The notes under the pieces: model-generated
The model's input: the letters and a program-made list of their open reading frames with translations, nothing else
Databases searched by the model: none
Told to the model about the DNA's origin: nothing
In this document: positions 12,937-64,000 of the stretch, piece after piece
Position numbering within the stretch: the stretch's first letter is position 1
How the letters are laid out: every line of letters starts with the position of its first letter
Translations under genes and position numbers: made by a program
DNA from: Saccharopolyspora gloriosae
Lineage (GTDB): Bacteria > Actinomycetota > Actinomycetes > Mycobacteriales > Pseudonocardiaceae
NCBI RefSeq assembly: GCF_022828475.1
Contig: NZ_CP059557.1
Coordinates: forward strand, 186,001 to 250,000
DNA length: 64,000 bases
Direction of reading: 5' to 3'

Positions 12937-12971
12937 GGAAAGGGGCCGTCCGTAACGGACGGCCCCTTTCC
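12937..12971 (+). terminator. Perfect 16-bp hairpin terminator
   Basis: GGAAAGGGGCCGTCCG and CGGACGGCCCCTTTCC pair perfectly around TAA, followed by CTTT. It lies 84 bases after the small antitoxin-like gene and just before the structured repeat element. Confidence 0.75.
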
Positions 12972-13000: not shown

Positions 13001-13260
13001 TCGGGTGGCGGAACCTCAGTTGGTCTCTCGCTGCGGGATCTTTTTCCCTAGTGGCTCCGCCACGAGGGAAAAAGCTGTCCTCGCGAGAGACCAACTGAGA
13101 ACCCGCCGGTGGTCGGCTTCTTGACGTGGGCTATGTGCTTCGCACATACAGGCACGGCTTCGCCGTCAGGCACGGCTTCGCCGTCAGGCACGGCTTCGCC
13201 GCTAGGCACGGCTTCGCCGCTAGGTACGGCCTTCGGGCGCGAGGCAGGCGGGATTCGGCG
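13001..13260. repeat. Structured covarying repeat element, copy A
   Basis: An outer 17-bp perfect stem (13015-13031 with 13083-13099) encloses a second stem (13041-13054 with 13060-13073, 13 of 14 paired) built on T5-CCCT/AGGG-A5. Next come a conserved spacer (AACCCGCCGGT ... GACGTGGGCT), a 7-bp hairpin (TATGTGC-TTC-GCACATA, 13133-13149) and four tandem 18-base GGC-TTC-GCC mini-hairpins. A second copy in inverted orientation lies at 61180-61430. The outer stem differs at four positions between copies and each is compensated. It sits between convergent genes (stops 12853 and 13352). It is either a transcribed 3' structure or a DNA cruciform element; I do not recognise it as a named family. Confidence 0.75.
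13149..13225. repeat. Tandem 18-base mini-hairpin array
   Basis: Four near-identical units of CAGGCACGGCTTCGCCGT type (last letters GTCA or GCTA), each able to fold as ACGGC-TTC-GCCGT, then a fifth degenerate unit (TACGGCCTTCGGGC). The array belongs to the tail of structured element A. The corresponding part of copy B has related GGGCTTCGCC hairpins but not a regular array. Confidence 0.7.
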
Positions 13261-24335: not shown

Positions 24336-24421
24336 CGGAGGATACGGGATTCGAACCCGTGAGGGCTATTAACCCAACACGATTTCCAATCGTGCGCCTT
24401 AGGCCGCTCGGCCAATCCTCC
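24336..24421 (-). tRNA. tRNA-Ser(GGA)
   Basis: An 86-base class II tRNA on the minus strand. The acceptor GGAGGAT pairs with ATCCTCC, the anticodon loop is TTGGAAA (anticodon GGA), there is a long variable arm, and the T-arm is ACGGGTTCGAATCCCGT. CCA is not encoded, unlike the tRNA-Ser(CGA) at 17019. Confidence 0.95.
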
Positions 24422-28042: not shown

Positions 28043-28135
28043 GGCGGGACTCCGTGCGGCGTCCATCCTGTGAACTCCCCCAGGGCCGGAAGGCAGCAAG
28101 GGTAAGCGGGCTCTGGCGGGTGCACGGGGTCCCGC
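28043..28135 (+). ncRNA. ffs: Small signal recognition particle RNA (4.5S type)
   Basis: About 93 bases. The ends pair as a long hairpin (GCGGGACTCCGTGC with GCACGGGGTCCCGC) and the conserved apical domain is present: CAGGGCCGGAAGGCAGCAAGG with its GGAA tetraloop and the asymmetric AGCA/ACC-type internal loop that binds Ffh. Location immediately upstream of dnaX is the usual actinobacterial arrangement. Confidence 0.93.
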
Positions 28136-28192
28136 TTACTTTCCCCGGCCGCCGCACTCGGCATCCCGATCCGGGCTGTCGGTGCCACCGCG

Positions 28193-32700: not shown

Positions 32701-32847
32701 GCGCTCACCTTGTCACGCACACCCCGCCCGGTGATCGACCGGTAGGTGATGATCAACACCTGGATCGTTGCGGTGGTCAGCGGTGCCCGAGCGTCCTGAT
32801 GGTGGAGCCCGGCGCACCGCGGAACCGACGAGCGCAGCGGGCTGCGA

Positions 32848-32894
32848 GTGAACGGACCGTTTGCCCAATCGGGTTGGACGAACGGTCCGTTCAC
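32848..32894. repeat. Nested-palindrome hairpin repeat, copy 4
   Basis: Perfect arms GTGAACGGACCGTT (32848-32861) and AACGGTCCGTTCAC (32881-32894) enclose a 19-base loop with CCAA...TTGG. Unlike copies 1-3 it lies between divergent genes (oligopeptidase and ybaB). The rest of the 407-base gap holds a small GTGCCCG-GTT-CGGGCAC hairpin (32988-33004) and the ybaB leader. Confidence 0.8.
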
Positions 32895-33107
32895 TCCGGT
32901 TGGAGCCCGGGTGGCGGGTGGGAAGGGGGCGGGGGACATGCCGGGTGGTTGCGCCGGGGGGTGGCGGGGCACGACTACGCTGGTGGTGTGCCCGGTTCGG
33001 GCACGTGCCCACGCTGGGTTCGGACCGGTCACGTGACCGGAACGCCGGGCTCGATCGCCACGCGGCGAACTCCAGCGGTGACCAAGAACAGCTCTGGGAG
33101 GACCACG

Positions 33108-61179: not shown

Positions 61180-61430
61180 GGGAAGCGACGGACTGCTTCG
61201 CGGCGAAGCCGTGCAGTAGGGCGGCGAAGCCCGCGAAGGGCGGCGAAGCCCCGCCTGCCTTGCGGCCGGAGGCCGTGCCTGTATGTGCGAAGCACACAGC
61301 CCACGTCACAAAGCCGCTCACCGGCGGGTTCTCAGTGGCTTCCTCGCGAGGACGGCCTTTTCCCTCGTGGCGCGGAGCCACTAGGGAAAAAGATCCCGCA
61401 GCGAGGAAGCCACTGAGGTTCCGCTACCCG
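61180..61430. repeat. Structured covarying repeat element, copy B (inverted relative to A)
   Basis: The outer stem CTCAGTGGCTTCCTCGC (61331-61347) pairs perfectly with 61401-61417. The inner stem TTTTCCCT...AGGGAAAA (61358-61371 with 61377-61390) has one mismatch. The reverse complement matches copy A through GCGGAACCTCAG, GGGATCTTTTTCCCTAGTGGCTCCG, GAACCCGCCGGTG, GACGTGGGCT and GTGCTTCGCACATACAGGCAC. It lies between convergent fur (ends 61124) and a minus-strand dynamin gene (ends 61461). The mini-hairpin tail is present but irregular. Confidence 0.75.
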
Positions 61431-61460: not shown

Positions 61461-62936
61461 TCAGTGAACCCGTGAAGCGATCAGGCGTTCGCAGCTGCGG
61501 AGCACCACTCGGACCGCTTCGAGGTGCGCGCGGTCGTGCAGCGGGTTCACCGCTTGGTCCCGCCAGCGCGCCAGCGCGGCCCCGGCCTCCTCGGCCAAGA
61601 TCGACTCCAGGGTGTCCGGCTCCTGGCCCAGCCGCGAGGCCGCGTCCTGGCCCTGCGCGCCCAGCAGTCGCCGTGCCTCGTTCTGCAGCGGGCGGGGGAA
61701 GCTCAGCTGGCCGGACTGCAACGCCGACAGCAGCCGCATCTCCTCCCACTCGGGCGCGTTCGATAGCAACCGCTCGAACTCCCCGCGCAGCTGCTGCACG
61801 CCGGGGCGCGGATTCGCCCGCAGCACCATGTCCACCGCCAGCAGCACCGATCGCGCGCGCAGCACGTCCTGCCGTTCGATGAACTGCTGGTGTACCGCCT
61901 CCTGCAGATCGTTGAGCCTGCTCGCCTCCAGCAGCGTGGCGCTGAGCCGCTTCTGATCCGTGATGCCCTCGGCGAGGGCGGTGAACGCCTGGGCCAGGCC
62001 GAACCGTCCGAAACGGTCCATCAGGTCCTGGCGCACGCTCGGCGGCACCGACTCCGGCGTGGGGTTGTTGGAGAACCGGTCGGACGACAGCAGCAATGTC
62101 TCCAACGCCTTCTCCGGCAACTGCCGCAGGTTGATCAGCGCCGCGAGATCCGCTTCGGTGAACGTGGCCGCCGCCTGCCCCAGCAAGCCGATCACCGGGA
62201 TCGAGTACTGGGTGAACGACCGCACCGCCGGGTCGTCGCGGAACCGCAACGCGATCCGCTCGGCCGCCGCCACCGCGCCGCTGCCCCCGTTGCCCATCTC
62301 ATCGGCGCGGGAGAACGTGATGATCGTGTTGATCGGGGCGCGCCGCGCGAGCTGCAACTCGTGCACCGACTGCAAGAACTGCACGTCGGTCTGCTGCGGG
62401 TAGCGGGTCAGGTACAGCAGCGCGTCCGCCTCGGACAGGATCTGCGCCAGCGCCGACCGCCCCGTGTCCTGCATCGCGGAGGAGGAGACCCCGGGCGTCT
62501 CCAGCAGCGTGATGGCCTGCAGGCCCGGCGCGGGAGCCTCGATCACCAGCCGCGACACCTCGTCCGGCCGCCACCGCTGCAGATCGCGAATCGTGTTCGT
62601 GTCCAGCGTCGTCACCGGTACGTTCTGCACCGCCCCGTGCGGGGTGTGCACGGTGATCCGGGGTTCCGGGCCGTACTGGTAGAAGGTGTTGACCTGCGTG
62701 CTCTCCTCGGCATCGGTCGGCGCGAGCCGCTGGCCCACCAGCGCGTTGATCAGCGTCGACTTGCCGGATTTGACCCGCCCGCTGACCGCGATGCGCAACG
62801 GCTGGTCCAGCCGTTCCAGCCGCCCGCGCAACCAGGCGGAGGTGCGCGGATCGTCCCGGTAGAACGTCATGGTGCGGATCAGCAGCGCACGGGACCGCTC
62901 CAGCAGGTCGCCCTGGGGGACGTCGGGCCGGCTCAT
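61461..62936 (-). CDS. Bacterial dynamin-like GTPase, IniA/DynA type (downstream subunit)
   Basis: 491 residues from ATG 62936. GTPase motifs are G1 G-R-V-K-S-G-K-S-T (about 53-61), G3 E-T-P-G-V and G4 F-S-R-A-D-E, with a long helical C-terminal half (about 250-491) of stalk type. No strong membrane helix. It overlaps the upstream dynamin gene by ATGA, so the two are made together, like IniA/IniC in mycobacteria and DynA/DynB in Streptomyces, which remodel membrane at division septa or under envelope stress. Its 3' end faces the structured element B. Confidence 0.82.
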   Translation of the reverse strand: MSRPDVPQGDLLERSRALLIRTMTFYRDDPRTSAWLRGRLERLDQPLRIAVSGRVKSGKSTLINALVGQRLAPTDAEESTQVNTFYQYGPEPRITVHTPHGAVQNVPVTTLDTNTIRDLQRWRPDEVSRLVIEAPAPGLQAITLLETPGVSSSAMQDTGRSALAQILSEADALLYLTRYPQQTDVQFLQSVHELQLARRAPINTIITFSRADEMGNGGSGAVAAAERIALRFRDDPAVRSFTQYSIPVIGLLGQAAATFTEADLAALINLRQLPEKALETLLLSSDRFSNNPTPESVPPSVRQDLMDRFGRFGLAQAFTALAEGITDQKRLSATLLEASRLNDLQEAVHQQFIERQDVLRARSVLLAVDMVLRANPRPGVQQLRGEFERLLSNAPEWEEMRLLSALQSGQLSFPRPLQNEARRLLGAQGQDAASRLGQEPDTLESILAEEAGAALARWRDQAVNPLHDRAHLEAVRVVLRSCERLIASRVH

Positions 62937-64000
62937 GCCGCGGTGATGCGGTTCGCGGTCAGCATTCCGGCACGCCTGCGCAACAGCGAGAGCTCTTCGA
63001 GTTTCCGGCGGATCTCGCGCGCCCGGTCCTCGCGGTCGACGGCGCTGCGTTCGGCGATGCGCTTGATGCTCTGGATTTCCTTGCTGATCTCCAACTGCGC
63101 TTCCTCGGTGAGCTGGGTGAAGTGCTGGTGCAGCGCGCGATGCGTGGCCCGGATGCCGTCCTTGGCCTCCTTGTTCACGTGGAACACGACGTGCTCCACG
63201 TAGCGCTGCGCGGTCGTCTTGGCCTCGGCTTGGCGGCGGCGCAGCCGGGCATCCGTCTCCTCGTTGAGGCTGCGGCTGCCCAGCAGCAGACCCGCGGAGA
63301 TGGACACGACGTTCAGCAGCGGCAACCCGATCTGGCTGGTGATCAGGCCGAACATGAGCACGCCGCCGTAGGAGCCGCGCAGCCCGGTCAGCACTTGATC
63401 GAGCCGTTTGTACACGCCGTTGCTGGGTTTTTTCAACGGTGTCACCTGGCCGAACGGGTCCGGGATGGGGATCTGTTCGATGCGCGGGCGGATGCTGGGG
63501 TGCTCGCGCAGGAATTCGTCTGTGACCCGGTCGCGCAGCTGTTCGCGGCGGAGGTCGAGCCAGGTGAAGTTCTCCTCGATGGCGGTCGCGAGCGCGCCGT
63601 CGAGCCATTCCACGAAGTCGTCCCAGACGGTCACCGGGTCGGCTTCTTCGAGGGTGTCGCCGATCTGGTTGGTGATGGCCCAGCTGCGTTCGCGGAAGTC
63701 GAACTCGATGTCGGCGAACAGTTCGCCGATGCCGTCGCTGAGGGTCTTCTGCCAGCGTCCGGTGATCCGCCGCAGATCTTCGGAGCGGCGTTGGGCGGTT
63801 TCCAGTTCGATCAACGTTTCCGCGGCGGTTCGCGGACTTTGTCCGGTGAGTTCCGCTTTCAGCGTTTCGCTGAGTTCGTCGACGGCGTCGGCGACGTTCT
63901 GCGCCACGAGCCGGCGGGTGAGCTGATCGTGCTGGCCGAGTGCTTCGCCGCGCAGATATTCGACGAGCTGGGGAAAACCGGATTCGGTGTTGAGCGTGGT
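62933..64000 (-). CDS. Bacterial dynamin-like GTPase (upstream subunit), 5' end outside window
   Basis: About 355 C-terminal residues are visible (open through 64000, entering as L-N-T-E-S-G-F-P-Q-L-V-E-Y). The visible part is the helical stalk plus a hydrophobic paddle, GGVLMFGLITSQIGLPLLNV (about 130 residues before the end), that inserts in membrane, then charged coiled-coil. The GTPase domain lies beyond the window, so the dynamin assignment relies on the paddle, the coiled coil and the partner gene. Its stop overlaps the start of the downstream GTPase (ATGA at 62933-62936). Confidence 0.72.
   Translation of the reverse strand, partial: TTLNTESGFPQLVEYLRGEALGQHDQLTRRLVAQNVADAVDELSETLKAELTGQSPRTAAETLIELETAQRRSEDLRRITGRWQKTLSDGIGELFADIEFDFRERSWAITNQIGDTLEEADPVTVWDDFVEWLDGALATAIEENFTWLDLRREQLRDRVTDEFLREHPSIRPRIEQIPIPDPFGQVTPLKKPSNGVYKRLDQVLTGLRGSYGGVLMFGLITSQIGLPLLNVVSISAGLLLGSRSLNEETDARLRRRQAEAKTTAQRYVEHVVFHVNKEAKDGIRATHRALHQHFTQLTEEAQLEISKEIQSIKRIAERSAVDREDRAREIRRKLEELSLLRRRAGMLTANRITAA

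Follow-up and report, generated by a model that had tools for sequence, protein, structure and literature searches.

The composite hairpin element in the window most likely belongs to the MITEs of the IS1031 type (IS5 family), because intact relatives share an 18-nt end with a 974-bp IS5-family IS that duplicates TNA. Taken as a whole, we consider it probable that the MITE transposed into TNA triplets, TGA included, and that its hairpin cassettes were overwritten between copies. The window is the whole stretch of DNA analyzed, 64,000 nt at positions 186001-250000 of the 6.88-Mb Saccharopolyspora gloriosae genome (G000), and it holds two copies, A and B (Table 1). Intact copies measure about 240 bp. 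Their first end repeat is separated by ~38 nt from the 97-nt hairpin, which is followed by a linker, by the mini-hairpin CAGCGGC-TTC-GCCGCTG and by the second end repeat. Six same-genus genomes are named G000-G005, of which G001 is a sister species with 89% identity; G017 and G018 are other genomes of the family that carry the element.

Table 1. Features of copies A and B, in window coordinates.
Feature	Position	Strand	Evidence or remark
Copy A conserved hairpin, 97 nt	13009..13105	+	Profile match, 99.9 bits; element in + orientation
Copy A outer stem, 5' arm, 17 bp	13015..13031	+	Variable block 13020-13027
Copy A outer stem, 3' arm	13083..13099	+	Perfect complement of 13015-13031; variable block 13087-13094
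Copy A linker and mini-hairpin TATGTGC-TTC-GCACATA	13106..13148 (mini-hairpin 13132-13148)	+	Sequence
Copy A tail, GGC-TTC-GCC mini-hairpins	13149..~13250	+	Right boundary approximate
Perfect terminator-like hairpin 5' of copy A, outside the element	~12942..12966	+	Sequence
Copy B conserved hairpin, 99 nt	61325..61423	-	Profile match, 91.9 bits
Copy B linker, mini-hairpin TGTGTGC-TTC-GCACATA and tail	61185..61324	-	Sequence; right boundary approximate
TGA stop of the gene upstream of copy B	61461..61463	-	ORF 61461-63608; ~38 nt before the hairpin

Both loci carried the composite that the sequence-only reading had described, with its stems, linker, mini-hairpin and tail. Copy A (13005-13250, z = -5.7) and copy B (61185-61430, z = -4.8) each folded better than 200 of 200 shuffled sequences. 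By sequence, a T5/A5 stem lies inside the 17-bp outer stem of copy A and is followed by the linker; variants of the TATGTGC-TTC-GCACATA mini-hairpin were found 3' of the other family hairpins listed. The variable blocks of copies A and B, TTGGTCTC and TGGCTTCC, differed at four positions, and all four were matched on the opposite arm, as had been reported. The separate perfect hairpin noticed beside copy A was indeed present. It is terminator-like and has a counterpart at the orthologous place in G001. The GGC-TTC-GCC tail arrays (window 13149-13250, and the long tails in G000 and G001) varied in number and mostly accompanied the T5 inner stem. Their opposite strand reads GCGAAGC, which we take to be a hyperstable DNA mini-hairpin.

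No named family had been recognized from the sequence, and Rfam gave the same answer, with no match to the hairpin at the gathering score. Only an SRP RNA and a tRNA reached the threshold in the window (bacterial small SRP RNA at 28043-28139, tRNA gene at 24336-24421). Three sub-threshold matches of the hairpin to miRNA families were taken as chance matches to a long hairpin. The window also held a separate repeat of ~50 bp (32847-32899), which had many matches in G001, G002 and G003 and some in G005, often several consecutively.

The element had been presented as a two-copy structure, and searches of the genome and its relatives showed that it is not. A BLAST search of G000 gave 366 candidates; all 40 that were scored spanned the hairpin, with query coverage from 174 to 246 of 246. 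When up to two mismatches were allowed, a 14-base core pattern matched 260 + 278 times in G000 (538), versus 22 + 18 (40) for the reversed control. A strict pattern across both arms matched 82 times on the forward and 82 times on the reverse strand, versus 0 + 0 for the control. The profile search found 31 copies in 464 kb and 54 copies in 864 kb of G000. Extrapolated from the profile and core-pattern counts, the genome carries roughly 430-500 copies. Among the 100 strict copies listed of 164, the intervals 0-2.43, 2.43-3.98 and 3.98-4.95 Mb contained 68, 8 and 24, so that such copies were about five times rarer in the middle interval than in the remaining listed range.

Related genomes also carried the element. 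A search with the DNA query matched 12 of 60 genomes (own genome included), among them all six searched same-genus genomes. Exact matches to the strict pattern were found in 30 of 249 sampled Pseudonocardiaceae genomes, and control matches were zero in every genome; the other 219 are not thereby proved empty, because the strict pattern misses copies (it found 182 in G000). The same survey gave 293 copies in G001 and 98 in G003. The genera named among the matches listed, 80 of at least 120 stretches, were Saccharopolyspora, Amycolatopsis, Sciscionella, Halopolyspora, Halosaccharopolyspora and a Pseudonocardia. Saccharopolyspora belongs to Pseudonocardiaceae, and the other five are presumably members as well. 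Viral contigs had no exact match to one strict pattern, and on this basis a phage origin of the element was dropped.

The sites themselves indicated mobility. G000 and G001 were collinear, with 89% identity across the compared region. For 51 G000 copies, 28 intervals were occupied in both genomes, 18 were empty in G001 and 5 were unplaced; of the 46 sites that could be determined, 18 thus had no copy in the sister species. For 12 cases, the filled and the empty form of the intergenic region were set side by side. A smaller comparison used G003, in which 2 of the 27 G000 sites that could be determined carried the element. Flank similarity at some shared sites was due to a common upstream repeat (for example at 280490 and 339974). 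This second conserved repeat (TTTAGTGATTACTTCCAGGGCTCG or variants) stood directly 5' of some hairpins in both species, at 280490, 339974 and 481028 of the concatenated G000 sequence (window start = 1) and at no fewer than six G001 copies.

Intact relatives in G001 were 226-256 bp long and had the terminal inverted repeats GCCTGTCTTTGATCTTG. Allowing up to three mismatches, this end motif exceeded its reversed control in G001 (105 versus 7), G018 (55 versus 4), G017 (56 versus 6) and G002 (38 versus 7), and was near background in G000 (22 versus 13). When 94 short-tail copies were simply scanned for terminal repeats, the signal was weak (19 versus 8 for the control); it was clear only with the exact end motif. 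Thirteen elements with paired ends were examined in G001; eight measured 226-256 bp, and the other five were deletion forms 65-119 bp long. When the ends were extended by two nucleotides each, identical TNA flanks were seen in 3 of the 13 (TCA, TGA and TGA); this offset was picked after inspecting the 13 elements, and 10 of them had no perfect duplication. The other six offsets gave identical flanks in 0, 0, 0, 0, 1 and 0 of the 13. In four further elements the two flanks differed by one base, and at least one of them was TNA.

The terminal inverted repeats were shared with an autonomous IS. In G018, which is of another genus, a 974-bp IS had an end identical to that of the element over 18 nt, with the same two-nucleotide offset. 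Of the eight copies of this IS examined, seven had identical TNA duplications and all eight had TNA on both sides. Its 285-aa protein matched the NCBIfam IS5 family, and a 192-aa part of it matched DDE_Tnp_1. Six related IS copies occurred in G017; the four examined were 950 bp long with perfect ends GTGCCTGTTTTTGATC, and each had a TNA duplication. All four (L326, L336, L341 and L344) lay inside CTCAG/CTGAG next to the hairpin foot motif, indicating that the hairpin itself is a transposon target. One of them adjoined an apparent second IS end. In G001, the elements at L321 and L322 were next to, or within, a hairpin-like stretch belonging to another copy, at CTGA, an arrangement that suggests nested insertion.

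PMC12016507 describes members of the IS1031 subgroup as preferring TNA targets, and for one of them, ISLrh, it gives GAACCTGTCTAGTATCT as the end and TGA as an insertion site. The ISLrh end is visibly similar to the ends found here. From the TNA target and this similarity, we infer that the element belongs with the IS1031 subgroup. Insertion into TNA would duplicate the triplet, and the element would probably be moved in trans by an IS5-family transposase. At E 1e-30, no homologue of the G018 transposase was found in G000-G005, G019, G031 or G035; the element-bearing genomes with one were G018, G017 and G010. Presence of the transposase did not track the element (3 of 12 element-bearing genomes versus 7 of 48 others). 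An inward-facing end-motif pair spanning 2.93 kb in G018 was considered as an autonomous element and dropped, because its ORFs resembled unrelated proteins by eye (RNase PH, nucleotide pyrophosphatase and a membrane protein). The 974-bp IS lies in that stretch too, next to a different end motif. Among the three guesses offered from the sequence (a 3'-end RNA element, a bidirectional insulator or terminator, and a non-autonomous repeat), the last is the one supported, by the copy number, the empty sites in the sister species, the terminal repeats in related genomes and the matching IS. A terminator or insulator role is possible.

A REP or REPIN mobilized by a RAYT (Y1) transposase would also be repeated and palindromic. 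A GTRG motif, which we take to be the RAYT motif, often stood 5' of the stem, and Y1_Tnp matches occurred in 4 of 12 element-bearing genomes (G004, G005, G010 and G017). REPINs share the high copy number, the extragenic position, the palindromic form and the compensatory changes, as described in PMC3116915. Against this, G000, G001, G002, G003 and G018, the five genomes richest in candidates, had no match to Y1_Tnp (PF01797), and RAYT was rejected as the mover on this account. The terminal repeats with TNA duplication also suggest a DDE enzyme. We regard this origin as very improbable.

The position of the element relative to genes was surveyed in parts of three genomes (G000, 864 kb; G001, 800 kb; G003, 400 kb), with gene calls from a custom GC3-based ORF script. 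After score and completeness cut-offs, 116 of the 119 profile matches entered the gene-orientation count and 114 the stop-distance count. A same-strand stop lay 15-50 nt before the hairpin start in 68 of 114 copies, versus 5.6% for random intergenic positions, and the gap was typically ~38 nt. The other 46 copies had no assigned same-strand stop upstream; stops were missed at some elements because of the GC3-based gene calls. The element-associated stops were TGA in 65 of 68 cases, versus 1317 of 1575 overall, and were preceded by T in 20 of 68, versus 92 of 1575 overall. In tandem gene pairs, 37 copies were co-oriented with the genes and 11 were opposite. Copies A and B had been placed between convergent gene ends. 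This held for 51 of 116 copies, and was part of a stricter rule, a hairpin ~38 nt after a stop, which copy B follows and copy A does not. The left end adjoined the stop in 67 copies and the right end in 11 (n = 114), a bias that symmetric TNA insertion does not account for; among short-tail copies the numbers were 36 and 10 (n = 56).

TGA is a TNA triplet, so a TNA target would account for docking at TGA stops, and the position after TGA fits such a target without any selection. The possibility that TGA is part of the element was rejected, because TGA or an aligned stop was also present in the empty alleles. Duplication of TNA at a TGA stop would leave the gene with an intact stop, so that insertions would be tolerated and persist.

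The location directly after a stop, the bottom-strand bias and a variable stem with fixed structure would also be expected of an ssDNA recombination site of the integron attC kind, in which a folded bottom strand behind a gene has a variable stem. attC sites have R boxes, RYYYAAC and GTTRRRY, that pair. Judged by eye against this definition, the hairpin had no paired R boxes, as its fold puts AAC opposite AAC and not AAC opposite GTT. Its copies are dispersed instead of lying in cassette arrays, and the terminal repeats and TNA duplications also speak against such a site. We regard an attC-like site as very improbable.

The pairing of the hairpin was analyzed across copies. In an alignment of 86 sequences, two-sided changes occurred at 16 of 28 consensus pairs. 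For a 29-pair structure, 90.7% of cells were paired versus 75.6% after shuffling, and 416 cells had two-sided changes versus 138. Pairing fell to 39-51% when the partner was slid by 1-3 columns. One short helix close to the loop was weakly supported (52% paired). Conserved letters were found in the foot and in the internal loop (GAGGACAGC opposite GATCCCGSA), and those of the internal loop were kept across genera. The apical part of the hairpin was wholly or partly inverted relative to other copies at G000:925186 and 3714286.

Mismatches were examined for strand bias in elements that matched the profile end to end (239 of 283), after removal of duplicates and of four elements in which under 10 of the 17 stem pairs were Watson-Crick. 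In the orientation of the sequence-only reading, 128 unique arm pairs had 99 A.C, 37 G.T and 48 other mismatches; the excess of A.C over G.T had p = 1e-7, with arm pairs that are not phylogenetically independent. A.C mismatches become wobbles when read on the opposite strand, that is, antisense to the upstream gene. On this strand, the AAC/AAC foot reads G.U, U.U and U.G. A.C versus G.T showed no clear bias in G000 (12 versus 16), G001 (4 versus 2) and NFXS83 (12 versus 8), whereas the bias was strong in Amycolatopsis (17 versus 0) and the remaining set (59 versus 14), together 76 versus 14. Of the two strands, the antisense one had the more stable fold in 35 of 46 distinct elements in G001, 20 of 35 in G000 and 111 of 129 elsewhere. 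Because of the cross-genus covariation and the wobble tolerance of the antisense strand outside the young copies of this genus, pairing appears to be under selection on one strand in most of the family. The young copies in this genus look neutral as to pairing.

Within this genus, the stem changed in blocks. The 8-bp variable block occurred as discrete types, with 9 perfect types in G000 and 16 in G001 in the sampled regions. In the 28 shared intervals, all 26 pairs that could be scored had different blocks, with a mean difference of 3.85 positions. Random G000-G001 pairs differed by 3.67 positions and were identical in 2.6% of cases; since shared pairs differed as much as random ones, the block retained no trace of orthology. 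Three of the 26 pairs differed at a single position, indicating that stepwise change also occurs. Eight of the 28 shared pairs were in opposite orientation. For 15 shared pairs, left-flank similarity was above the 99th percentile of unrelated pairs, and 14 of these had the same orientation. Nine of the 15 were equal in length; their 59 inner nucleotides differed by 0-3 in eight pairs and by 28 in the ninth. In the pair 326276/324641, the terminator and flank were the same and the inner part was identical, and the block was TGAGCCTC in one and GTGTCTTC in the other. The commonest block was CGCCCTCC in G018 (10 of 16) and TCGGGGTC in the three g61 genomes (12 of 21), both among the matches listed. 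Arms that were chimeras of two perfect types were rare: there were 4 in the 124 distinct elements from genomes other than G000, G001 and G003, and two further ones in the 100 listed G000 copies.

Exchange of whole units from copy to copy explains this turnover and the four compensated differences between copies A and B. Within a genome, whole hairpin cassettes would be replaced by those of other copies, with gene conversion as the most likely mechanism. Such overwriting would create a species-specific pool of stem types, and 'compensated' differences would arise in one step. Re-insertion at the same place is an alternative to exchange, chiefly for the pairs in opposite orientation. The four matched changes had been read as a sign of selection on base pairing. 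On their own they do not prove it, because stem blocks differ as units between copies that are nearly identical elsewhere; selection on pairing is instead supported by the family-wide covariation and strand bias.

The arms might also be kept alike with no selection on pairing, by intramolecular template switching within the palindrome or by conversion of whole units, which would give compensation free of function. This would be consistent with the lack of a clear strand bias in G000, G001 and NFXS83, with the chimeric arms and with the inverted apical loops of the two copies listed. The 76 A.C versus 14 G.T mismatches outside these three sets would not result from repair alone, and the letters of the internal loop were kept across genera. 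We view this explanation as possible but rather unlikely.

Alternatively, selection could have placed a 3'-end RNA element of the host behind genes, as a terminator, a barrier to transcription or a processing site, with mobility that is ancient or incidental. The tight spacing after stops, the co-orientation in tandem gene pairs, the cross-genus covariation and the strand-specific wobble bias outside the young copies of this genus are in line with it. So is the finding that hairpins in G000 are mostly still paired (identical block arms in 24 of 35 distinct elements) though their ends are near background. However, 18 of 46 sites were empty in the sister species, 219 of 249 family genomes had no exact match to the strict pattern, the wobble-tolerant strand is antisense to the upstream gene, and the TGA position fits a TNA target without selection. 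We consider such a host element possible but rather unlikely.

To our knowledge, IS5-type transposases do not require a hairpin, so the covariation of the hairpin must have a different origin. The folded strand antisense to the upstream gene may have a selected role. The hairpin could have become domesticated: the antisense strand would form, at the 3' ends of hundreds of genes, a structured RNA or ssDNA that is read by a factor, genome-wide conversion would keep the species-specific stem pools, and the folded unit would outlast the decayed transposon ends. We consider this scenario unlikely, if conceivable.

With hundreds of copies per genome, a near-fixed distance to the stop and orthologous sites with swapped stems, the element is a natural experiment on one folded unit. 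It can reveal how fast repeats are homogenized in bacteria, how transposons escape harm through stop-codon targets and when a transposon hairpin turns into a selected RNA. It also calls for caution, as compensated differences between two repeat copies need not mean site-by-site compensatory evolution.

MIRU of mycobacteria is an actinobacterial repeat said to insert at DTGA stop codons in gene orientation. By this description it resembles the element in its insertion site, and we know of no MIRU with the hairpin or ends of the element. Literature searches on MIRU at DTGA stops and on REP in Pseudonocardiaceae found no paper. Searches on Saccharopolyspora inverted repeats, Amycolatopsis MITEs, stem-loops and IS5/IS1031/REP gave no title or abstract on this element among the matches listed. 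REPINs and REPs with RAYT are similar as extragenic palindromes of high copy number with compensatory changes (PMC3116915). The element differs from REPINs in its DDE-type ends, probable TNA duplication, much longer hairpin and conserved internal loop, and in the missing Y1_Tnp match in the five candidate-richest genomes. IS elements insert into REPs, according to PMC1525189, and the four G017 IS5 copies in the hairpin foot are comparable to this. The main text of a review of prokaryotic MITEs (PMC10969869) does not contain 'hairpin', 'stop codon' or 'gene conversion'. MITEs and the IS1031 subgroup of IS5 are alike in being short, non-coding and present in hundreds of copies, with IS-like terminal repeats and, probably, a 3-bp TNA target (PMC12016507). 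Unlike IS1031-type MITEs, the element has a 97-nt hairpin with cross-genus covariation, a wobble bias on one strand and stem blocks that turn over unit by unit. The best reading is that the element is a MITE of the IS1031 type, set apart by a covarying 97-nt hairpin whose stem blocks turn over as units.
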